Shown here piece after piece: positions 491 through 10,761 of a DNA stretch of 10,761 nt. This DNA comes from Candidatus Fermentibacterota bacterium (GTDB lineage: Bacteria > JAFGKV01). Numbering within the stretch: position 1 is the first letter of the stretch; the number at the start of each line of letters is the position of its first letter. Made by a program: the position numbers and the translations under genes. The DNA is taken from contig JAFGKV010000316.1 of the NCBI GenBank assembly GCA_016928395.1, forward strand, positions 1 to 10,761, read 5' to 3'. The notes beneath the pieces are model-generated. The model was not told where the DNA came from, searched no databases, and saw only the letters and a list, made by a program, of their open reading frames with translations.

Positions 491-498
491 AAGGAGGG
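491..498 (+). promoter_or_regulatory. Ribosome binding site that fixes the GTG start at 504
   Basis: AAGGAGGG sits 5 bases before GTG at 504. The frame is also open further upstream to an ATG at 342, but that codon lies upstream of the promoter, lacks a Shine-Dalgarno site, and would add a 54-residue extension unlike any aldehyde dehydrogenase N-terminus. The GTG is therefore the start. Confidence 0.85.
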
Positions 499-503
499 TT
501 GTC

Positions 504-1994
504 GTGAAAGTAGTAATTCCGAAAGAACTGCTGGATAAGGCCAATCTGATAGGGGGGGTTTGGAGTAATGCAGAATCCGGGAAGACCTTCGAGGTTCAGA
601 GCCCGGTGACGGGCGAGGTGATTGCCAAGGTCCCGCTCTGCGATACTGCGGATGTGGAAAAGGCCGTGCAGGCCGCCAGAAGAGTACGAGACGAGTTCAA
701 GGACACTCCCGTGCTGCGGAGAGTGGAGCTGTGCAACAGAATCAAGCAGCTCGTTCTGGAGAGGAAGGAGATCATTGCGAAGGTCATGACCCTGGAACAG
801 GGGAAGCCCTGCGAGGGAGAGTCGATTCCGGATTTGGACGAAACCGCCCTGTTGTTCACGGACTTCGCCGAAGACATCGTCAGGCTGGAAATGGACACGT
901 ATCCTCTGAAGGACCCAAACAAGATGGCCTTCTCGGTGCGCGAGGCGATAGGTGTGACTGCGGTGATCACTCCGTGGAACTACCCGGTGTTGATCCCGGC
1001 GGAATACATCGCTCCTGCTCTTGTCGTCGGTAACCCGATCGTCTTCAAGCCCGCATCGTACACTCCCCTGTCGGCGATCCTGTTCGCGCGCTGCATTCAG
1101 GACGCTCTGGACGAGCTTGGGTTCCCCAAAGGGATCTTCAACTTGATCACGGGCCCCGGAGGCAGTGTGGGCAACCATCTGGTCGGTCACCCTCACGTGG
1201 ACTGCATCGCGTTCACGGGGGAAACGGTCACAGGGCAGGCGATCTGCAGCCGTGCCGGACTCAAACGAACGCTCATGGAGCTCGGGGGCAATGGCCCTCA
1301 GATCGTGTGTGACGATGCAGACCTCGCAAAAGCTGCCGCCGCTGCCGCCTTCGGCTGCTACACGAACGCGGGGCAGGTTTGCTGTGCAACGGAACGAATC
1401 CTGGTAGACGCGAGGGTCCACGACAAGTTCGTGAAGCTAATGCTCGAGGAAACGGAGAAATGGAAGGTGGGGGACCCATTTGACAAGAAGACGAACGTGG
1501 GGCCTCTGAACAACGAGCCTACGGCCGCGAAGACGGAAACTCACCTGGACGATGCGGTGAAAAAGGGCGCCAGGATCCTGGTGGGTGGCAAGCGGGAATC
1601 CGGACGGCCCACCGGGTTGTACTTCCAGCCCACCGTCATCGACGGGGTGACCCCGAGCATGCTCCTGAACAAGGAGGAGACCTTTGGGCCCGTTGCTCCC
1701 ATCATCAGCTTCGAGAGCGACGAGGAAGCAGTCCAGATCGCTAACGGCAGCGGGTACGGGCTGCAGATGGCGGTCTTCACATCCTCGATCAAGAAATGCT
1801 TCTTCTATTCCAAGAAGCTGAGAACCGGCACGATCGTGGTCAACGACACCACCGACTACTGGGAAGACCTGTATGTTCCTTTTGGTGGAGGCGGCGGGAC
1901 CAAGAGCGGGCACGGTCGCATTGCCACCCATTTTACCATGGAGGATCTCACGTATATCAAGACGACGACCATTGATTTTGCCAACGCAAAGTGA
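504..1994 (+). CDS. NAD(P)-dependent aldehyde dehydrogenase
   Basis: A 496-residue protein of normal length for the aldehyde dehydrogenase superfamily, cytosolic, oxidising an aldehyde to an acid with NAD(P)+. The catalytic set is complete: Thr-Pro-Trp-Asn-Tyr-Pro with Asn159, the cofactor-contact Lys182 in Phe-Lys-Pro-Ala-Ser, the Phe-Thr-Gly-Glu turn, the general base Glu259 in Met-Glu-Leu-Gly-Gly, the nucleophile Cys293 in Gly-Gln-Val-Cys-Cys, and Glu392 before Thr-Phe-Gly-Pro. The C-terminal Pro-Phe-Gly-Gly motif is followed by an unusual run of Gly before Thr-Lys-Ser-Gly. The substrate cannot be read from sequence; it resembles betaine-aldehyde or semialdehyde dehydrogenases in general. 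As the first gene of the operon, 24 bases ahead of the binding protein, it probably processes an aldehyde derived from the imported compound (inference). Confidence 0.93.
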   Translation: MKVVIPKELLDKANLIGGVWSNAESGKTFEVQSPVTGEVIAKVPLCDTADVEKAVQAARRVRDEFKDTPVLRRVELCNRIKQLVLERKEIIAKVMTLEQGKPCEGESIPDLDETALLFTDFAEDIVRLEMDTYPLKDPNKMAFSVREAIGVTAVITPWNYPVLIPAEYIAPALVVGNPIVFKPASYTPLSAILFARCIQDALDELGFPKGIFNLITGPGGSVGNHLVGHPHVDCIAFTGETVTGQAICSRAGLKRTLMELGGNGPQIVCDDADLAKAAAAAAFGCYTNAGQVCCATERILVDARVHDKFVKLMLEETEKWKVGDPFDKKTNVGPLNNEPTAAKTETHLDDAVKKGARILVGGKRESGRPTGLYFQPTVIDGVTPSMLLNKEETFGPVAPIISFESDEEAVQIANGSGYGLQMAVFTSSIKKCFFYSKKLRTGTIVVNDTTDYWEDLYVPFGGGGGTKSGHGRIATHFTMEDLTYIKTTTIDFANAK

Positions 1995-2018
1995 GAACAG
2001 AACACTAAGGAGGAGAGC

Positions 2019-3284
2019 ATGAAACGTGTCCTGTACGTAGGCCTGTTGCTGCTCGTAGGCGCGGCAGTCGTGTTCGCTGGGGGAAAGAAGGAGGCGCCGG
2101 CCGTGGAGGGAACCGCCGCGTCCGGAGTCGTCAAGATCGGCTTCCTGGCTCCACTTACCGGGGATGCTGCAGCTTGGGGGCTGCCCGGGCTCTATGGGGC
2201 GCAGATGTGGATGGAGGATGTCAACGCCGCGGGAGGAATCAAGGCCGGCGGCAAGTCGTACAAGGTCGAGCTCGTGACGTACGACGAGGAGAACGTGGCC
2301 TCGAAGGCGTTGCTCGGGGCCAAGAAGTTGGTTCTGGAAGACAAGGTGGCGGTTGTGCTCATGATGGCGGGAGCCACGGTAACGGCCTGCCAGTCCTTCT
2401 TCACCGAGAACAAGGTTCTCTCGATGAGCCTGGCACCGTACGACACCAGGGCGGAAGCGCCGTACCACCTCTGTGCTGCGGAGCCGTCCCTAGTGTATCA
2501 TCTCGCCTCAATCCCTTATATCGCGAAGACGTACCCCAACGTGAAGCGGGTGGCGATTGTCGCCCAAGATGACGAAATCGGCCGCCAGGGGCTTGCGTAT
2601 CTGCGCGCTGCCTGCGAGTCCGCGGGCCTGCAGGTCGTGTACGACAAGTTCTACGGGTTCGAGACCACGGATTTCGCGCCGATCATGACGGCGATCCTCA
2701 ATGCCAAGCCCGACCTGATCAGTTTCGACGGGGGCTATTCCTACTACGTCGAGCTCCTGGCCGAGCAAGCGTATCTGATGGGGTTCGAGGGTATCATCGA
2801 GAGCTCGGAGTTCTTCCTCAGCTCGCTACTGGCGAAAGTCCCTGCAGACTGGGCCGAAGGCGCCGTGGCGTCCTTCGCCGACTGGGACGACCCGAAACTC
2901 CCGAAGTACTGCCACGATTTCTATGCGGAGTACACCCAGCGCTGGCCTGGGCAGTGGGGTGCGGTTTCCTGGGAGTACGCCGCCAACCTCGACATCTGGA
3001 AGTTCGGAGTGGAGAGTGCCGACAGCATTGATCCCATGGAAGTCTTCAAGGCACTCAAGTCCGCCGAGACGATTCCGCACGTGTACGGTGAGGGTGTGTG
3101 GTCCGGCAAAGAGATCTGGGGCATCGACAACTTCCTGGCGACACCGTGGCACAACACGGAGGTCAGGAATGGGAAACACGTCATCGTGAACACTCAGCCG
3201 ATTCTCGGGTGGTTCTATCAACCAGGGAACAAAGAGATACTGCTCAAGCATCTGAAGGCGGCGGGTGTGTACTACGTGAAGTAA
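2019..3284 (+). CDS. livJ: ABC transporter periplasmic substrate-binding protein, branched-chain amino acid (LivJ/LivK, Peripla_BP_6) type
   Basis: A 421-residue exported protein. Residues 1-20 form a signal peptide (Lys2-Arg3, a hydrophobic core, then Val-Phe-Ala), with likely signal peptidase I cleavage after Ala20; there is no lipobox Cys. The mature end starts Gly-Gly-Lys-Lys-Glu and is followed by a short linker. The body opens with the family hallmark Ile-Gly-Phe-Leu-Ala-Pro-Leu-Thr-Gly-Asp, then the Gly-x-x-x-Trp-x-Glu-Asp-Val-Asn-x-x-Gly-Gly-Ile segment. It is rich in Trp, mainly in the C-terminal half. The family binds amino acids, short amides, urea or aromatic acids; the ligand here is unknown, though the operon suggests a methylated amine or amino acid (inference). 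A strong AAGGAGG precedes the ATG by about 6 bases. It is followed by an intergenic hairpin. The symbol is by family position only. Confidence 0.92.
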   Translation: MKRVLYVGLLLLVGAAVVFAGGKKEAPAVEGTAASGVVKIGFLAPLTGDAAAWGLPGLYGAQMWMEDVNAAGGIKAGGKSYKVELVTYDEENVASKALLGAKKLVLEDKVAVVLMMAGATVTACQSFFTENKVLSMSLAPYDTRAEAPYHLCAAEPSLVYHLASIPYIAKTYPNVKRVAIVAQDDEIGRQGLAYLRAACESAGLQVVYDKFYGFETTDFAPIMTAILNAKPDLISFDGGYSYYVELLAEQAYLMGFEGIIESSEFFLSSLLAKVPADWAEGAVASFADWDDPKLPKYCHDFYAEYTQRWPGQWGAVSWEYAANLDIWKFGVESADSIDPMEVFKALKSAETIPHVYGEGVWSGKEIWGIDNFLATPWHNTEVRNGKHVIVNTQPILGWFYQPGNKEILLKHLKAAGVYYVK

Positions 3285-3305
3285 GAGGCACCTGGTAGAC
3301 AGTGC

Positions 3306-3355
3306 GCGGCCCGTTGGCCTGCAGCCAGAGTCATCGGCGTCTGCCGACGGGCCGC
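3306..3355 (+). repeat. Large intergenic stem-loop between binding-protein and permease genes
   Basis: Arms 3306-3318 (GCGGCCCGTTGGC) and 3343-3355 (GCCGACGGGCCGC) pair over 13 base pairs with a single G-U wobble, enclosing a 24-base loop. No T run follows, so it is not a standard intrinsic terminator. It sits right after the binding-protein stop and ends 14 bases before the livH ATG. Hairpins here in binding-protein operons are known to protect the upstream mRNA and to raise binding protein over permease. It could also limit livH translation, because no clear Shine-Dalgarno site is visible before that ATG. Confidence 0.8.
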
Positions 3356-3369
3356 ATCTGCTCCAAGCC

Positions 3370-4230
3370 ATGTCAATCATCCTGCAGACCTTGGTCAACA
3401 GCCTTATCACCAGCTCCTTCTACATGCTGATCGCAGTCGGGTTGACTCTCGTCTTTGGAGTGATGAACATCGCCAATTTTGCCCATGGCGAGTTCTACAT
3501 GGTGGGAGCCTACACGGTCTGGCTTCTCTACAGTGTGGGAAAGATCCCTTTCTTTGTCTCCGTCCTCGTCGCACTTGTGGTGGTGTGTGCGATAGGGGTC
3601 GTCGCCGAACGGGTCTTGTTTCGCCGAGTGTACGGCAATGTCCTCGGCGGCTTCATCATCTCGATAGGACTGGTGTTCATTCTACAGGTCCTGGTGGGTC
3701 AGATATGGGGCGTAGGCATGATGAAGCCGGTCCCCAAGGTCTTTCCCGGCTCGTTGAGCGTCCTTGGAATCAGTGTTGGCTGGCAGAGATTCATCGTCGT
3801 CCCCTGCACTGGGTTCCTGCTGGCGGTTCTGTGGTTCTTTCTCGCCAAGACGAAGACGGGGAGGGGACTGCGGGCGGTAGCCCAGGATCGCGAAGCCGCG
3901 ATTCTGCATGGGATCGACGTGAATCGGTGCTGTGCCGTCGCCATGGGCCTCGGCAGCGCCATGGCTGCGGCCGGTGGAGCCCTCATGGCTCCGATTGTTT
4001 CGGTGTACCCTTACATGGGGCACTCGGTGGTCTGGACCGGATTCGTTATCGTCATCGTGGGAGGGGCAGGCAACATCAAAGGCACGATCCTGTCCGCCCT
4101 GTTCTTCGGATTCCTGCACACCATCGTGGCGACGGTCCTTGACTCGACGATCGGGAATCTCGTAGGTGTGCTTTGCATGCTCATCATCCTGGCGATCAAG
4201 CCCGAAGGTCTCGCAGGTGAGAGGGAATAG
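3370..4230 (+). CDS. livH: ABC transporter membrane permease, LivH type
   Basis: A 286-residue integral inner-membrane protein with about eight hydrophobic segments. It has the LivH family start (a short Leu-Gln-x-Leu-Val-Asn-Ser-Leu lead into Gly-Leu-Thr-Leu-Val-Phe-Gly-Val-Met), then Ile-Ala-Asn-Phe-Ala-His-Gly-Glu-Phe-Tyr-Met, where canonical LivH proteins have a near-identical Ile-Asn-Phe-Ala-His-Gly. The cytoplasmic coupling loop is visible near residues 160-185 (Thr-x-x-Gly-Arg-Gly-Leu-Arg-Ala-Val-Ala-Gln-Asp-Arg-Glu-Ala-Ala). It forms the translocation pore with LivM. The ATG is chosen because the protein starts where the family starts, although no good ribosome site precedes it. It ends in TAG and overlaps the LivM gene. 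Confidence 0.92.
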   Translation: MSIILQTLVNSLITSSFYMLIAVGLTLVFGVMNIANFAHGEFYMVGAYTVWLLYSVGKIPFFVSVLVALVVVCAIGVVAERVLFRRVYGNVLGGFIISIGLVFILQVLVGQIWGVGMMKPVPKVFPGSLSVLGISVGWQRFIVVPCTGFLLAVLWFFLAKTKTGRGLRAVAQDREAAILHGIDVNRCCAVAMGLGSAMAAAGGALMAPIVSVYPYMGHSVVWTGFVIVIVGGAGNIKGTILSALFFGFLHTIVATVLDSTIGNLVGVLCMLIILAIKPEGLAGERE

Positions 4231-5218
4231 CGCTTCCCTGCCCATTACGCTGATCTCCTGGATCGCCGTCATCGCGGTCTTTCTTGTCCTCCCCTTTGTC
4301 GTCGGTCCGTATCTGCTGGAAGTGATGATCATGCTCCTCATCAACATCGTGGTCGTGGCCAGCTTCCGGCTCATTACCATGACCGGGGGGTGGTCGCTGG
4401 CTCACATCCCCTTGGTCGGGGTCGGCGCCTACTCGGCGGCCCTTCTGTCGAAGCACTTCGGGGTCTCGTTCTGGCTGAACCTTCCCCTGGGAGGATTGAC
4501 TGCCGCGTTTGTTGCCGCGGCGATCTGCTATCCGCTGCTGCGCATGAAGGGCTTCGCGTTCTTCATCGGCTCTTTTGCGGCCGGCGAAGCCATCCGCTTG
4601 TGCTGGATCCGTTTCCGCAATCCCTTCGGCGGTCCGCGGGGGCTGATCGACATAGCCGGTGCGGGAAGCCTTCGGGTGGCCGGGCTGTTCTCCTTGAATC
4701 TGGATTCCGGGATTCCGTTCTACTTCCTGACAGTCCTGGTCACGCTGATTTGCCTATACCTCATGCACCGGCTGGGCGATTCCCGCATAGGCGTCACCCT
4801 CGAAGCGATTCATATCCATGACAATCTGGCGAAGAGTCTGGGGATTCCGGTCACGAAATACCGGGCCCTTGCCTTCATTGCAGGCGGCTTTTTCGCCGGG
4901 GTGGCCGGCGCGATGCTCGCTCACCGCTTGCGAACTATCGATCCGCATCAGTTCGGGTTCACCACGACGCTGTACCTGCTGCTTTGGGCAATCGTCGGCG
5001 GCACGACCACGTTCGCGGGCCCGCTGCTGGGCATTGTTGCTCTAACGGCAATCGGAGAGCTGATACGGCGGTTCAGCGAGTGGGTGCCCCTGATCTATGG
5101 CGTCATTCTGATTGTTGTGGTTCTCTTTTTCCCGCAGGGGCTCGAGAGTCTTCCCGCGCGGATTCCGTTCTTGCTGAAGAAGTACGGGATCGCCCAGAAA
5201 GGGAAGCCGAGAAAATGA
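4217..5218 (+). CDS. livM: ABC transporter membrane permease, LivM type
   Basis: A hydrophobic protein of about 333 residues with eight or so membrane segments, the second half of the transporter pore. Family landmarks are Gly-Gly-Trp-Ser-Leu-Ala-His (where LivM usually reads Gly-x-x-Ser-Leu-Gly-His), Gly-Val-Gly-Ala-Tyr-Ser-Ala-Ala, the coupling loop Asp-Ser-Arg-Ile-Gly-Val-Thr-Leu-Glu-Ala-Ile with Lys-Ser-Leu-Gly-Ile-Pro-Val-Thr-Lys-Tyr, and the Val-Gly-Gly-x-x-x-x-x-Gly-Pro-Leu-Leu-Gly loop. I place the start at GTG 4217, giving a 14-base overlap with livH that implies translational coupling. The frame is open further upstream to an ATG at 4166, which would add residues unlike the family. 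The true start could be a little further downstream, so the 5' end is less certain than the rest. Confidence 0.88.
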   Translation: MRGNSASLPITLISWIAVIAVFLVLPFVVGPYLLEVMIMLLINIVVVASFRLITMTGGWSLAHIPLVGVGAYSAALLSKHFGVSFWLNLPLGGLTAAFVAAAICYPLLRMKGFAFFIGSFAAGEAIRLCWIRFRNPFGGPRGLIDIAGAGSLRVAGLFSLNLDSGIPFYFLTVLVTLICLYLMHRLGDSRIGVTLEAIHIHDNLAKSLGIPVTKYRALAFIAGGFFAGVAGAMLAHRLRTIDPHQFGFTTTLYLLLWAIVGGTTTFAGPLLGIVALTAIGELIRRFSEWVPLIYGVILIVVVLFFPQGLESLPARIPFLLKKYGIAQKGKPRK

Positions 5219-5261
5219 CCCACAGGGGCAACCGAGGCGTGATGGAGGGCGGACTGCAGAG

Positions 5262-6020
5262 ATGGCCCTGTTAGAGCTGGCAGGTCTCACCAAACGTTTC
5301 GGTGCCCTGGTTGCCGTGGACGAGTTGAACGTCTCCATCGAAAGGGGGGAGATTCGGGGACTGATCGGCCCGAACGGCTCCGGCAAGACCACGGTTTTTA
5401 ACCTGGCCACCGGCTTCTACAGGCCGTCGGCCGGACGAGTCCTATGGCAGGGCGAAGACGTCACGCTCTTGTCCCCGGAACGCAGAGCGAAATTGGGCAT
5501 CATCAGGACATTTCAGCAAGCAGCCCTTTTCGGCGAGATGACAGTGGTGAACAACGTGATCGTGGCCTGTCATCTTCATCTGGACGTCGGGCTTGCGGGT
5601 CAGTTCTTGAAAACCCCCAAGATGAGAGCCGTCCAGAGAAGGATCGAGGCCAGGGCTGACGAGATCCTGGAATTGATGGGGCTTCTCGAGGTGAAGCACG
5701 AAGTCGCGGGCGATCTGCCTCACGGTTCGCAGCGTGTCTTGGGCATCGCCATGGCGCTGGCGTCGCAGCCGCAGCTCCTGCTGCTCGATGAACCGGCCGC
5801 AGGCATGAATCCGGTGGAGACCGAGCGCTTGATGTCGATCATCCGTATGCTGCGCGACAAGGGAACAACGATGTTCCTGGTGGAGCATGACATGAAAGCA
5901 GTCATGAGCACTTGCGACAGAATCACGGTCATGGACTTTGGGCAAGGGATCGCGGAGGGTACGCCGCACGAGGTTGCAAAGAACGCTGCGGTTATCGAAG
6001 CGTACCTCGGCGGGGGATAG
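5262..6020 (+). CDS. livG: ABC transporter ATP-binding protein, LivG type
   Basis: A 252-residue cytosolic ATPase that drives the LivHM pore. Walker A is Gly-Pro-Asn-Gly-Ser-Gly-Lys-Thr-Thr at 36-44 and the Q-loop is Arg-Thr-Phe-Gln-Gln. The long insert after the Q-loop (about residues 100-130) is typical of LivG and not LivF. The signature motif is Leu-Pro-His-Gly-Ser-Gln instead of Leu-Ser-Gly-Gly-Gln, Walker B is Leu-Leu-Leu-Leu-Asp-Glu-Pro-Ala-Ala-Gly-Met-Asn-Pro, and the switch His is in Leu-Val-Glu-His-Asp-Met. The ATG follows GGAGG (5244-5248) with a rather long 13-base spacer. It ends in TAG at 6018-6020, one codon before the livF ATG and in the same frame, so UAG readthrough would fuse the two ATPases. 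Confidence 0.93.
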   Translation: MALLELAGLTKRFGALVAVDELNVSIERGEIRGLIGPNGSGKTTVFNLATGFYRPSAGRVLWQGEDVTLLSPERRAKLGIIRTFQQAALFGEMTVVNNVIVACHLHLDVGLAGQFLKTPKMRAVQRRIEARADEILELMGLLEVKHEVAGDLPHGSQRVLGIAMALASQPQLLLLDEPAAGMNPVETERLMSIIRMLRDKGTTMFLVEHDMKAVMSTCDRITVMDFGQGIAEGTPHEVAKNAAVIEAYLGGG

Positions 6021-6023
6021 GCT

Positions 6024-6728
6024 ATGCTGCGCATAGAGAATCTTGTCGTTCACTACGGGGGAGTCGCAGCGCTAGACGGGATATCCCTGGAGGTCGAAGA
6101 GGGGAGCATCGTCACCCTCATCGGAGCGAACGGTGCCGGCAAGAGCACCTGCCTCAAGGCGGTATCCGGTCTCGTGAGGCCGACCTCCGGCGAGATCTGG
6201 TTTCAGGGCACACGCATCGACGGTATGAAACCGCAGCGAATCGTGAAGATGGGTATCGTGCAGGTTCCTGAAGGGCGCAGATTGTTCCCGTACATGAGCG
6301 TCTTTGACAATTTGCTGACGGGGGCTCATCTCCGAAAGGACCAGGAGCAGATTGCCCGCGATTTGGACGGGGTGTACCGGTACTTCCCGATCTTGCTAGA
6401 GAAGCGCAAACAGGCCGCCCGGAGCCTGAGCGGCGGGCAGCAGCAGATGGTTGCGTTCGGCCGCGGGCTCATGGCCCACCCGAAGGTGTTTCTCTTTGAC
6501 GAGCCGTCACTCGGCTTGGCGCCGATGCTGGTGCGGGAAGTTGGAGAGCATATCAGGCAGCATGCAGAGGAAGGATACACGATCGTGCTGGTGGAACAGA
6601 ACGCGAACTTGGCCCTCGCGCTGGCGGACCGGGCGTACGTTCTGGAAAGAGGAAGAATCGTCCTGGAAGGAGCCGCCAAAGAGCTTCGGGACAACGAATA
6701 CGTGAGGAAGGCGTACCTCGGCATATGA
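6024..6728 (+). CDS. livF: ABC transporter ATP-binding protein, LivF type
   Basis: A 234-residue ATPase, the partner of LivG and of normal LivF length. Walker A is Gly-Ala-Asn-Gly-Ala-Gly-Lys-Ser-Thr at 34-42. The LivF-typical Val-Pro-Glu-Gly-Arg-Arg-Leu-Phe-Pro-x-Met-Ser-Val follows, then a canonical Leu-Ser-Gly-Gly-Gln-Gln-Gln signature, Walker B with Asp-Glu-Pro-Ser-Leu-Gly-Leu-Ala-Pro, and Leu-Val-Glu-Gln-Asn-Ala, in which Gln replaces the switch His as is usual in LivF. The ATG is 3 bases after the livG stop, so translation is probably coupled. It ends in TGA, 45 bases before mtbB. Confidence 0.94.
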   Translation: MLRIENLVVHYGGVAALDGISLEVEEGSIVTLIGANGAGKSTCLKAVSGLVRPTSGEIWFQGTRIDGMKPQRIVKMGIVQVPEGRRLFPYMSVFDNLLTGAHLRKDQEQIARDLDGVYRYFPILLEKRKQAARSLSGGQQQMVAFGRGLMAHPKVFLFDEPSLGLAPMLVREVGEHIRQHAEEGYTIVLVEQNANLALALADRAYVLERGRIVLEGAAKELRDNEYVRKAYLGI

Positions 6729-6773
6729 TCGTGCTGTCGGCGAAGCCGGGCATGCAGCCGTCCGGAGGCGAAT

Positions 6774-8198
6774 ATGAAGGGTGACAAGATACTGACCCGC
6801 ATGGGTGACGGCGAACGTGTATGGATGGCGATCGAACAGGCCAGGGAGGACGTGGCTCTGGGCAGTCAGGACGCGGGGAAGAAGGGCAACATCGCGGAAC
6901 TGTGCGCCGAGGATCAGGAACGGCTGCTGGCGATCCTGGCCGAGCCCGGACGGATCGTGAGCGTCAGCCCCGGCGAAGAAGTGGTTGTCACTGACGACGG
7001 CGCTGCGCTCATTCTCTGCAGCGGCTCAACGGACGGCGGGTCCGGACTGGCGATCGACCGCCAGCCCGCGATCTTGGCCTACGAGCGGACCTTCGCCCCC
7101 GATACGGTCTCCACGGGGATTCATGACTACAGCTTCAAGCCGGTCAAGGCGATCATGAGCAATGAGCGCCAAGCCTACGCTTCGACGGTTCTCTTGACGA
7201 CTGCACCGCTGTTCTACGGTTCCCAGCCCAACCTCGGGTTGTACTTCCAGCCCGACGGGCCTCATCCCAACCCCGCGGAGCTGCTGCCGAAGGGTGACGT
7301 TCAGGGTGCTCGGCAGTCGCAGGAGGAAGCGGCAGCCCACCTTACCAGAGACATGGTGTTCGTCGGAGAGAGCCTCTACGAGATGGGGTGCGAGGGGCTC
7401 AATTTCGACACAGCCGGATCAGCCGGCGATGCCGATTTTTATGCCGCCCTGATGGCGATTGAGCAGCTCAAGATGTCGGCGCCAAACATGGCGATCGAGG
7501 TCGGCATGGCGGGGGAGTTCGTCCTGGGGATGCACGGGCAAATCGTCTATCGCGGCGAGCGCCTGGCCGGCATGTTCCCCCATCAGCAGGTCAAGATGGC
7601 CGAGGCGGCGGGGGCGGACATCTTCGGCCCTGCGGTCAACGTGAACACTTCCCGTTCGTTCGCGTGGAATCTCGCTCGGGCCGTGACCTTCGTGAAGGCC
7701 ACGGTGGAAGCTGCCGGGATTCCCGTGCACGCCAATGTCGGCATGGGGGTGTGCGGTGTTCCGATGTGCGTGGAAACCCCGATCGACTGCGTTACGCGAA
7801 CCACGAAAGCCCTGGTGCAGATTGGGAAGATCGATGGGTTGTAGCTGGGCGTAGGGGACGCTTTCGGGATGCCCCTGGCGCATATCATGGCTGCAGGCAT
7901 GGGAGGCATCCGGACTTCCGGAGATCTGGTGGCCTGGATGCAGATGCGACGAAAGATGCGGATTGCCGAAGCCAAGCGGTATGTGGCGAAAAACCTGGGC
8001 ATAGACCTGATCGACTTGACGAACGAGGAGGTCATGTACCAGCTGCGGCAGGATCTGGGAATAGGAGTGGTGACCGGGGTGCCAGGAGACCCGGAAGGAA
8101 TCGTGGCAAAGTGCAGGATTGCCCAGCTGCTGGGGATATCCATCAACTCCGTCGATCGCTTTGTATCGAGTCTGTCGTTCTTGAAGGGAAGTCAATAG
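6774..8198 (+). CDS. mtbB: Dimethylamine:corrinoid protein methyltransferase with in-frame amber (pyrrolysine) codon
   Basis: MtbB moves a methyl group from dimethylamine to the Co(I) corrinoid of MtbC, giving monomethylamine. Translating the UAG at codon 357 as pyrrolysine gives 474 residues; methanogen MtbB is about 467. Family landmarks before the UAG include His-Asp-Tyr-Ser-Phe-Lys-Pro-Val-Lys, Leu-Phe-Tyr-Gly-Ser-Gln-Pro-Asn-Leu-Gly-Leu-Tyr, Gly-x-Asn-Phe-Asp-Thr, Asn-Thr-Ser-x-x-x-Ala-Trp-Asn-Leu-Ala-Arg-Ala-Val-Thr-Phe and Ile-Asp-Gly-Leu just before the amber. After it come Leu-Gly-Val-Gly-Asp-x-x-Gly-Met-Pro, His-Ile-Met-Ala-Ala-Gly-Met and Gly-Asp-Leu-Val-Ala-x-Met-Gln, as in archaeal MtbB from memory. 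GGAGG at 6764-6768 is 5 bases before the ATG. The terminal stop at 8196-8198 is also UAG. It must not be annotated as a truncated 356-residue protein plus a separate downstream piece. A paralogue acting on another dimethylated amine is possible. Confidence 0.95.
7842..7844 (+). other. In-frame UAG codon, pyrrolysine insertion site of mtbB
   Basis: Codon 357 of mtbB is TAG. The same frame then stays open for 117 sense codons that read as conserved MtbB sequence, which rules out a true end here. Pyrrolysine sits at the equivalent place in methanogen MtbB (residue 356 in Methanosarcina barkeri), where its imine ring is thought to bind and orient the methylamine. Decoding needs the tRNA(CUA) PylT and the ligase PylS, which are not in the window. 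Confidence 0.93.
7849..7881 (+). promoter_or_regulatory. Possible PYLIS-like stem-loop just downstream of the mtbB amber codon
   Basis: Bases 7849-7857 (GGCGTAGGGG minus its first G: GCGTAGGGG) can pair with 7872-7881. The pairs are G7849-C7881, C7850-G7880, G7851-C7879, a bulged G7878, a U-G wobble at 7852/7877 and five pairs AGGGG/CCCCT (7853-7857 with 7872-7876), with a 14-base loop. The stem begins 4 bases after the UAG. Stem-loops at this distance were proposed as pyrrolysine insertion elements in archaeal methyltransferase genes, though they are not strictly required for decoding. The GC-rich coding sequence makes chance pairing likely. Confidence 0.4.
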
Positions 8199-8216
8199 AG
8201 GGGAGCTGACCGGAGC

Positions 8217-8864
8217 ATGCTTTCAGACGACCTGATCGAGCGCGCCAATCAGACGGTTCTCGGCTTTGACACACAAGGTGCCGTCGCTCTCGTCGAAGAG
8301 CTCATCTCCTCCGGAGGAGATCTCCTGGAATTGATGGACAGGGCCTACATCCCCGCAATCGGTGAGATCGGCGAGCGCTTCAGCTGCGGGCAGGTGTTTC
8401 TGCCGGAGCTCATTCAAGCGGCCAACGTGATGAAAGCGGTCACGGAAATGGTGAGCCGGGCCTTACCCAAAGAGGCGACGAGGCCCGCAGGGGCAAAGTT
8501 CGTCATCGGTACCGTCGAGGGCGATATCCACGACATCGGGAAGACCCTGGTCGTGACCCTGCTCGAGGTGCACGGCTTCACGGTCTATGACCTGGGAAGA
8601 GACGTCAGCTCCAAAAGACTCATCGCGAAAGCAGTCGAAGTGGATGCCGGCATCATCGGAACGAGCGCCCTGCTGTCTACCACAATGGAGAAACAGAAAG
8701 AGCTCGTGCAGGCGCTCACGAAACCCGAATACAAGGGGCGCTTCAAGACGATGGTCGGCGGTGCTCCGGTGACGCGCCGTTGGGCCGAGAGGATCGGAGC
8801 GGACGGTTACGGCGAGAATGCTCACGAGGCGGTGGTGAAGGCGAAGGAGCTTAGCGGCCCGTAG
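8217..8864 (+). CDS. mtbC: Corrinoid (cobalamin-binding) methyl-carrier protein, MtbC type
   Basis: A 215-residue cytosolic protein of normal length. An N-terminal helical cap domain (about 1-85, with the Glu-x-x-x-Gly-x-x-Phe-x-x-Gly-x-x-Phe-Leu-Pro-Glu pattern) precedes a B12-binding Rossmann domain. The cobalt ligand His105 lies in Asp103-Ile-His105-Asp-Ile-Gly108-Lys, followed by the nucleotide-loop Gly-Thr-Ser-Ala-Leu-Leu-Ser-Thr-Thr-Met and the Val-Gly-Gly-Ala-Pro-Val-Thr motif. It accepts the methyl group from MtbB and passes it to a downstream methyltransferase. MtmC, MtbC and MttC proteins are hard to tell apart; adjacency to mtbB decides the name. AGGGGAG (8199-8205) serves as ribosome site. 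It starts 18 bases after the mtbB stop and in the same frame. It ends with TAG, after which the frame stays open for 51 codons of unconvincing sequence. Confidence 0.93.
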   Translation: MLSDDLIERANQTVLGFDTQGAVALVEELISSGGDLLELMDRAYIPAIGEIGERFSCGQVFLPELIQAANVMKAVTEMVSRALPKEATRPAGAKFVIGTVEGDIHDIGKTLVVTLLEVHGFTVYDLGRDVSSKRLIAKAVEVDAGIIGTSALLSTTMEKQKELVQALTKPEYKGRFKTMVGGAPVTRRWAERIGADGYGENAHEAVVKAKELSGP

Positions 8865-8868
8865 GAGC

Positions 8869-8881
8869 CATCCGGCGGATG
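8869..8881 (+). terminator. Short hairpin after mtbC, weak terminator candidate
   Basis: CATCC and GGATG pair around a GGC loop, starting 4 bases after the mtbC stop. The stem is only 5 base pairs and no T run follows, so this is at most a weak or Rho-assisted end of the long operon. The GC-rich stretch 8890-8935 may hold further unstable pairings, none clean. Confidence 0.25.
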
Positions 8882-9000
8882 TCAAGACCGCTCGCCGCGA
8901 CGCCGCCATCCTGCCCGCAGCGGGGGCGCCTTCGCCAGTTTCCATATCGAAATCACGAATTATGCAAGGAAGACCGCTTTCAATTTCGAAATATGCGATG

Positions 9001-9016
9001 GAATACTTGAGTATTC
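9001..9016. promoter_or_regulatory. Perfect 16-base palindrome, probable regulator binding site
   Basis: GAATACT-TG-AGTATTC is an exact inverted repeat of 7-base arms around a 2-base centre, lying in an AT-rich island within GC-rich sequence. A smaller perfect palindrome, ATTTCGAAAT, lies at 8983-8992. The site abuts the putative -35 box of the dehydrogenase promoter, where an activator or repressor would act. The regulator is unknown. Confidence 0.6.
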
Positions 9017-9046
9017 TTGAATTACGTACTAAGGTAGGAGTGAAAT
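9017..9046 (+). promoter_or_regulatory. Putative promoter of the saccharopine-family dehydrogenase gene
   Basis: TTGAAT (9017-9022) and TGAAAT (9041-9046) are spaced by 18 bases, with 4 of 6 consensus matches in each box. The position directly downstream of the palindrome and about 50 bases before the GTG start makes it the best candidate in this 230-base gap. An alternative pair using TTGAGT at 9007 with TAAGGT at 9030 overlaps the palindrome. Confidence 0.4.
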
Positions 9047-9094
9047 AACGCTATCTCCAGCGGCCAAGCGTGCCTGCACCGAGGAGGTTCGATC

Positions 9095-10294
9095 GTGAAG
9101 ATTGCGGTATTGGGAGGGGCGGGCCTGATGGGCTCGGGGACCGTGCGAGATCTGGTTTCCCGGGAATCCGCTGGAATCGACCGGGTGATCGTAGCAGACA
9201 TAGACCTGGACAAGGCGCGGCGGCTTGTCGATAGCCTCGGTGACAAACGGCTGGAGCCAGCCCGCCTAGACGTTCGGGATCGCCGGAGCTGCCTGGCGGT
9301 TCTGAAGGCAGTGGACATCTGCATCAACGGCGTACCTACGTTTGCGGGATTTCAGATGGACATCTTCCACTGCTGCCTGGAGGCCAAGTGCCACTACATT
9401 GACTTCGGCGGAATGGGGATCTACACACCCCAGCAGAAAGCCGAGCACGACGCTTGGAGCCGAGCCGGGGTGACCGCGATCCTGGGCCTGGGGTCCGACC
9501 CCGGCATGTCGAATGTACTGTGCAAGGCCGTGGCGGAACAGCTGGAGGAGATCGACAAGATCAGTCTCTATTGGGCGTCGAAGTTGGTGGGTGACGAGAA
9601 TCCGGTACTCGTGCCTCCGTACAGTATTTCGACGCTGCTCGGGGAATACGCCAACAACAGCAAGCAATTCATAAACGGCGAGCTTGTGGACAAACCACCG
9701 CTCAGCGGAGAGGTGTCTCTCGTGCTGCCGCCGCCCTTTGGCCAAACCGAGTTCGTGCATTCGCAGCATTCGGAACCGCTCACCGTTCCCTTCGCCAAGG
9801 GAATCAAGGACAAGGGGATCAGAGAATTCACCTGGCGTCTCCATCTCCCGGAGAAGGAACATGAGGTGTACAAGAGTCTCGTCAAAGTAGGATTCGGGGA
9901 GTTTGCCGTTCCGATCGACTTTAGAGGCATGAGCGTCGCGCCCGCCGAGTTCCTCGAGGCTCTGATCGCCCGAAACATCGAGAGGAACCGGCACAGGATC
10001 CCCCACCAGGATGCCTACGAGATCCACCTGGCCATCGGCGAAGGCAGAATGAACCGCAAGAAGACCACCGTGCAGTGCATGGTTTTCGTGGCTCCGGATC
10101 CGTTCTACACAGACTACAACGATGCGGCTACTTCGATGAACGCCTCGATTGGAGCTCAGCTCCTGGGACGACCGAAGCCAGTTCCCGGCGTATGGGGGCC
10201 GGAGGAATACTACAATGTACAGGAATACTTCTCGGAACTAAAGAAGAGGCACTTCAAGATTACTCTCGCGGTGACAACGGAAGAGGAACTCTAG
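9095..10294 (+). CDS. Saccharopine dehydrogenase-family oxidoreductase, lysine 6-dehydrogenase-like
   Basis: A 399-residue cytosolic NAD(P)-dependent oxidoreductase. The N-terminal Rossmann fold has Gly7-Gly-Ala-Gly-Leu-Met-Gly13, with an acidic strand end (Ala-Asp-Ile-Asp) suggesting NAD preference. Further family marks are Val-Asp-Ile-Cys-Ile-Asn-Gly-Val-Pro, His-Tyr-Ile-Asp-Phe-Gly-Gly and Gly-Leu-Gly-Ser-Asp-Pro-Gly-Met-Ser-Asn, matching the Gly-x-x-Pro-Gly-Met pattern of saccharopine dehydrogenase-like enzymes. From memory, the general layout and C-terminal end resemble bacterial lysine 6-dehydrogenase, which converts lysine to an aminoadipate semialdehyde, but the substrate is not established. 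The GTG start follows GAGGAGG (9081-9087) by 7 bases. It is separated from mtbC by 230 bases with its own likely promoter, so it is a separate but perhaps functionally linked unit. It ends in TAG. Confidence 0.85.
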   Translation: MKIAVLGGAGLMGSGTVRDLVSRESAGIDRVIVADIDLDKARRLVDSLGDKRLEPARLDVRDRRSCLAVLKAVDICINGVPTFAGFQMDIFHCCLEAKCHYIDFGGMGIYTPQQKAEHDAWSRAGVTAILGLGSDPGMSNVLCKAVAEQLEEIDKISLYWASKLVGDENPVLVPPYSISTLLGEYANNSKQFINGELVDKPPLSGEVSLVLPPPFGQTEFVHSQHSEPLTVPFAKGIKDKGIREFTWRLHLPEKEHEVYKSLVKVGFGEFAVPIDFRGMSVAPAEFLEALIARNIERNRHRIPHQDAYEIHLAIGEGRMNRKKTTVQCMVFVAPDPFYTDYNDAATSMNASIGAQLLGRPKPVPGVWGPEEYYNVQEYFSELKKRHFKITLAVTTEEEL

Positions 10295-10422: not shown

Positions 10423-10761
10423 ATGGACTACCGACTGTCCAAGTCCAAGTATCTCACCGGCCTGAACTGCCTGAAGGCGCTCTGGCTCACGATCCGCGAT
10501 CCGGGCAAGGCCGCTCCGCCCTCGCCCGCCCAGGAGTACATCTTTGCGCAGGGCACGAGGGTCGGGCTCGTGGCCCAGGAGTGCTTCCCTGAGGGGGTTC
10601 TGGTGGCCGCACCCTCGTACCAGGCTCCTGCTGCCCTGGCGGAGACCCGGGCGCTCGTAGCCGGAGGGGTGCCGGCTGTGTTCGAGGCCGCCTTCTTCCA
10701 CGATAACATCCTGGTGCGGGTCGACGTGCTGCGCCGCTCGGCCGAGGTCGGGCACGATGCC
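10423..10761 (+). CDS. DUF2779-domain protein, N-terminal 113 residues (partial)
   Basis: The frame is open from ATG 10423 to the window edge. The start, Leu-Ser-Lys-Ser-Lys-Tyr-Leu-Thr-Gly-Leu-Asn-Cys-Leu-Lys-Ala-Leu-Trp-Leu, matches the N-terminus of DUF2779 proteins, a RecB/Cas4-like nuclease-related family in which Gln-Cys-Pro-Lys is usual. Later landmarks are Phe-Ala-Gln-Gly-Thr-Arg-Val-Gly, Phe-Pro-Glu-Gly-Val, and Val-Phe-Glu-Ala-Ala-Phe followed by Leu-Val-Arg-Val-Asp-Val-Leu. The Glu and Asp of the last pair would be metal ligands of the nuclease core, and Cys16 could be an iron-sulfur ligand, as in Cas4/AddB-like enzymes (family knowledge plus inference). The ribosome site is weak. 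It looks unrelated to the methylamine operon; its biological role is unknown. Confidence 0.75.
   Translation, partial: MDYRLSKSKYLTGLNCLKALWLTIRDPGKAAPPSPAQEYIFAQGTRVGLVAQECFPEGVLVAAPSYQAPAALAETRALVAGGVPAVFEAAFFHDNILVRVDVLRRSAEVGHDA

Follow-up and report, generated by a model that had tools for sequence, protein, structure and literature searches.

A pyrrolysine-type dimethylamine methyltransferase gene in an apparent bacterial N-methylated-amine cassette, and the absence of detected pyl genes from its assigned genome

A reading frame that ends at a UAG codon and resumes behind it in the same frame raises two questions: whether the UAG marks a genuine pyrrolysine position, and whether the organism to which the sequence has been assigned decodes it. 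The frame considered here lies in a window of 10,761 bases, which is the complete contig C50 of the genome bin G000. This bin comprises 4.79 Mb in 343 contigs, with a completeness of 94.18% and a contamination of 2.97%, and was compared with a genus relative (G001) and a family relative (G002). The features of the window are as follows.

498-1994, forward strand: aldehyde dehydrogenase (PF00171, 490 bits; start uncertain, the open reading frame opening at 342)
2019-3284, forward strand: LIV-type periplasmic substrate-binding protein (PF13458, 161 bits)
3370-4230, forward strand: LIV-type ABC permease 1 (PF02653)
4166-5218, forward strand: LIV-type ABC permease 2 (PF02653; start uncertain)
5262-6020, forward strand: LivG-like ATPase (PF00005; NF008449 at 267 bits, below the cut-off of 362)
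6024-6728, forward strand: LivF-like ATPase (PF00005; NF008626 at 243 bits, below the cut-off of 441)
6774-8198, forward strand: mtbB, [dimethylamine--corrinoid protein] Co-methyltransferase, complete (PF09505 and TIGR02368 above cut-off; terminal stop UAG)
7842-7844, forward strand: in-frame UAG, pyrrolysine position, codon 357 (alignment column common to four archaeal MtbB genes)
7842-7941, forward strand: PYLIS_2-like segment (RF02509, mtbB; Rfam score 66.9 bits, gathering score 36)
8217-8864, forward strand: MtbC-like corrinoid protein (B12-binding domains PF02310 and PF02607)
9095-10294, forward strand: saccharopine-dehydrogenase-like NAD(P) oxidoreductase (PF03435, PF16653)

From ATG 6774 to the UAG at 7842-7844, the mtbB frame encodes 356 amino acids with the C-terminus ...KIDGL; past this codon, which is the single internal in-frame UAG of 6774-8198, the frame runs for 117 more codons to the UAG at 8196-8198. 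The read-through product matches PF09505 with 613 bits over profile positions 4-461 of 463 (cut-off 25) and TIGR02368 with 519 bits over positions 7-463 of 466 (cut-off 369.1). The full-length match over the curated cut-off and the UAG at the pyrrolysine position together place the protein in the MtbB (Dimeth_Pyl) family. In an alignment with four MtbB of Methanomassiliicoccales, each of which carries one in-frame UAG, the UAG of the window gene and those of the four archaeal genes occupy a single column. Over the 118 residues preceding the UAG, identity to the archaeal sequences amounts to 0.59-0.62, and over the 117 codons that follow it to 0.53-0.58. The GC content by codon position is similar on both sides of UAG 357 (0.65/0.45/0.80 before, 0.62/0.41/0.71 after), and the downstream part therefore still looks coding. 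These observations bear out the preliminary description, in which the gene was taken for an intact full-length MtbB with codon 357 at the archaeal pyrrolysine position and a conserved MtbB C-terminus downstream of it. As judged from its sequence, 6774-8198 is an authentic pyrrolysine-type mtbB and not a frame interrupted by a chance stop.

A separate open reading frame of 109 amino acids opens at ATG 7869, as would be expected if the UAG were a sequencing error, or the genuine stop of a shorter gene with a second small gene behind it. However, one profile covers both sides of the UAG from end to end, and it is very unlikely that an error would hit the exact pyrrolysine column, so that this explanation can be practically discounted. 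Inspection by eye located a GGAGG upstream of ATG 6774 and no comparable site upstream of ATG 7869. Automatic annotation would cut mtbB into two genes; the earlier expectation that a standard gene caller would introduce a false stop and, at ATG 7869, a spurious second start is correct.

The RNA fold of the PYLIS_2-like segment is no more stable than that of shuffled sequences (z -0.24), so the Rfam match may only echo the conserved coding sequence of the gene. A structure model was of poor quality (mean pLDDT 54), and no conclusion was drawn from it.

The window gene resembles archaeal MtbB (PF09505/TIGR02368) in its full-length homology and in having its one in-frame UAG at the same alignment position, but differs in being 48-49% identical to it, in its bacterial-type neighbours and in its assignment to a genome without detected pyl genes. 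The MtbB relatives obtained from the scan of genome contigs were archaeal only, and none turned up in scans of viral contigs, of phages or of plasmids; among 386 sampled genomes, MtbB is present in G000 alone. Marine Deltaproteobacteria are reported to possess an MtbB with an in-frame Pyl codon, and their genomes also encode Pyl biosynthesis proteins (PMC8318568). The likeness, drawn from the published description, lies in the bacterial genome and in the dimethylamine methyltransferase with an in-frame Pyl codon, and the difference in the Pyl biosynthesis proteins, which are encoded there but were not found in the present bin. The non-Pyl MttB superfamily (PF06253) likewise consists of corrinoid-dependent amine demethylases, but is another family and has no in-frame UAG. 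One gene of this superfamily occurs on contig C73 of G000 (L059 83-3805) with genes for an MtgC-like corrinoid protein, a homocysteine S-methyltransferase-family protein and a carbon-nitrogen hydrolase. An MttB match in G002 containing one TGA was considered as a second case of recoding and rejected, since the TGA falls close to where the match begins on its upstream side, outside the conserved gene.

The product of 8217-8864 has its best match in MtbC, with 182 bits for NF041607 (cut-off 350) and 181 bits for TIGR02370 (cut-off 215.3), both below cut-off, and probably accepts the methyl group from MtbB as its cognate corrinoid protein. The substrate-binding protein has relatives (33-38%) on plasmids of Paracoccus, Ponticoccus and Rhizobium, with dmmA (dimethylamine monooxygenase) nearby in Ponticoccus and choline dehydrogenase genes nearby in Rhizobium. 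Relatives of the saccharopine-dehydrogenase-like gene (52-56% identity) are on alphaproteobacterial plasmids; an aldehyde dehydrogenase gene lies alongside three of the four inspected, and ABC importer genes are near all four. These alphaproteobacterial neighbourhoods suggest that an N-methylated amine is taken up and broken down. The stretch 498-10294 is apparently one cassette for the catabolism of such a compound, its five-gene LIV-type importer included, and the substrate is possibly a larger molecule than dimethylamine. At 10423-10761, a further gene start runs off the contig; this fragment has no Pfam match and shares 49% identity with a portion of a long open reading frame in G060.

As regards decoding, the searches of G000, G001 and G002 gave no PylS, PylB, PylC or PylD above the family cut-off; Methanosarcina acetivorans, the positive control in each of them, scored over it. 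The archaeal genome G041, which bears an MtbB relative, was positive for PylB, PylC and PylD, and its PylS adjoins PylC. PylS exceeded the cut-off in none of the 386 bacterial genomes, a sample that is thus without a bacterial positive control. A single archaeal PylS query, however, matches the PDB chains 3dsq and 2zni, PylS of Desulfitobacterium, at 229 bits, and a bacterial PylS should therefore not have escaped. Two PylB-like matches in G001 (L017 312-1181 at 124 bits and L020 97-633 at 90 bits) are far under the cut-off of 348 and were not counted as PylB, being probably related radical-SAM proteins. The window contains no tRNA, and a CTA-anticodon tRNA is absent among the eight tRNAs found in the 0.82 Mb sampled (about 17% of G000). 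A tRNAPyl consensus pattern gave no match in G000-G002, a result without weight, since the control, the genome of the MtbB-bearing archaeon L010, likewise gave none. No locus combining mtbB with pyl genes was seen for this organism.

The use of the 22nd amino acid by the host, which the preliminary description had deduced from the gene, is thus not supported by the host genome and should not be claimed from this bin. A complete genome without pyl genes had been named there as grounds for refuting the whole reading. Within the limits of the 94%-complete assembly such an absence is recorded, but with an incomplete genome and a possibly foreign contig, the missing pyl genes do not refute mtbB itself.

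The relationship of the contig to the bin bears directly on this absence. In codon usage, the window ranks 55th of 58 by RSCU distance and has a larger PCA residual than every sampled contig; its tetranucleotide correlation (0.64) falls among the values of other G000 contigs. MtbB, the substrate-binding protein, the saccharopine-dehydrogenase-like protein and the product of the gene at 10423 are each encoded only once in G000, and neither G001 nor G002 has a true counterpart of any of them, the saccharopine-dehydrogenase-like protein showing one very weak partial match in G001. About 3% of G000 open reading frames match at a minimum of 50% identity in a 15% sample of G002, which scales to about 20%; in a family so diverse, missing counterparts are a weak sign of contamination. 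At its N-terminus, the substrate-binding protein carries a signal peptide with the ending ...VFAGGKKEA, which resembles those of spirochaete lipoproteins. No lipoprotein of this kind was found in the G000 sample, and the resemblance is a hint, serving only as a lead to the source of the contig. Mis-binning of C50 is plausible; alternatively, C50 may be an island acquired by transfer, or it may be native, the pyl cassette then falling within the 6% of the genome that is missing. Probably, the contig has been mis-sorted or the pyl machinery was left unassembled, and the host assignment of C50 is doubtful.

UAG serves as an ordinary stop in G000, as evident from its terminal position in 141 of the 417 long open reading frames of the sample (about a third) and in five of the nine window genes. 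When long open reading frames joined by each stop were counted, UAG showed no excess over its ordinary share, in a count blurred by shadow open reading frames in GC-rich DNA. In Asgard archaea, a Pyl-encoding class with 21% UAG has been likened to Pyl-encoding bacteria (PMC9723677), which indicates that ordinary UAG stops alone do not exclude pyrrolysine.

The usual employment of UAG as a stop, the absence of PylS, B, C and D from the 94%-complete assembly and from both close relatives, and an outlying codon usage as in a transferred island would all fit a contig native to G000, whose mtbB was transferred without the pyl cassette or outlived its loss, so that UAG 357 terminates translation and yields a non-functional product of 356 residues. 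Against this, the codons past the UAG carry neither a frameshift nor a further stop and have kept both conservation and coding composition, which means that decoding, if lost, must have been lost recently; this explanation is considered unlikely. A conserved downstream frame in a bin without Pyl genes would also result if UAG 357 were read by an ordinary suppressor tRNA or by programmed read-through, with a standard residue at 357. The exact coincidence of the UAG with the pyrrolysine column, the cost of general suppression where UAG is a frequent normal stop and, more weakly, the lack of a CTA anticodon among the tRNAs of the sampled sixth or so of the genome make such a reading very improbable. 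It is hardly to be expected that the contig is native to a sparsely sampled lineage truly without PylS and the Pyl biosynthesis genes, in which a functional full-length MtbB is made through another reading of UAG 357.

It is thus likely that the locus represents an authentic Pyl-type bacterial mtbB in an N-methylated-amine cassette, the pyl cassette being outside the bin owing to mis-binning or an assembly gap. In the true source cell, a charged tRNAPyl would decode UAG 357, and the full-length MtbB would transfer a methyl group from an N-methylamine, putatively dimethylamine as judged from the family, to the corrinoid protein of 8217-8864. The pyl cassette would reside elsewhere, in another genome if the 10.8-kb contig was mis-binned, or else in the unassembled part of this one.

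Pyl-containing MtbB is already known in bacteria (PMC8318568), and no description was found of the operon setting of the present bacterial Pyl-type mtbB. This setting, in which the gene is accompanied by an aldehyde dehydrogenase, a LIV-type importer, a corrinoid protein and a saccharopine-dehydrogenase-like enzyme, is less usual than the gene itself. The case also calls for caution: where a methyltransferase gene with an in-frame UAG sits on a short metagenome-style contig, pyrrolysine use by the organism into whose bin it was placed is not thereby shown. If the contig is native, the locus would provide a test of whether Pyl-type genes persist without their decoding machinery.
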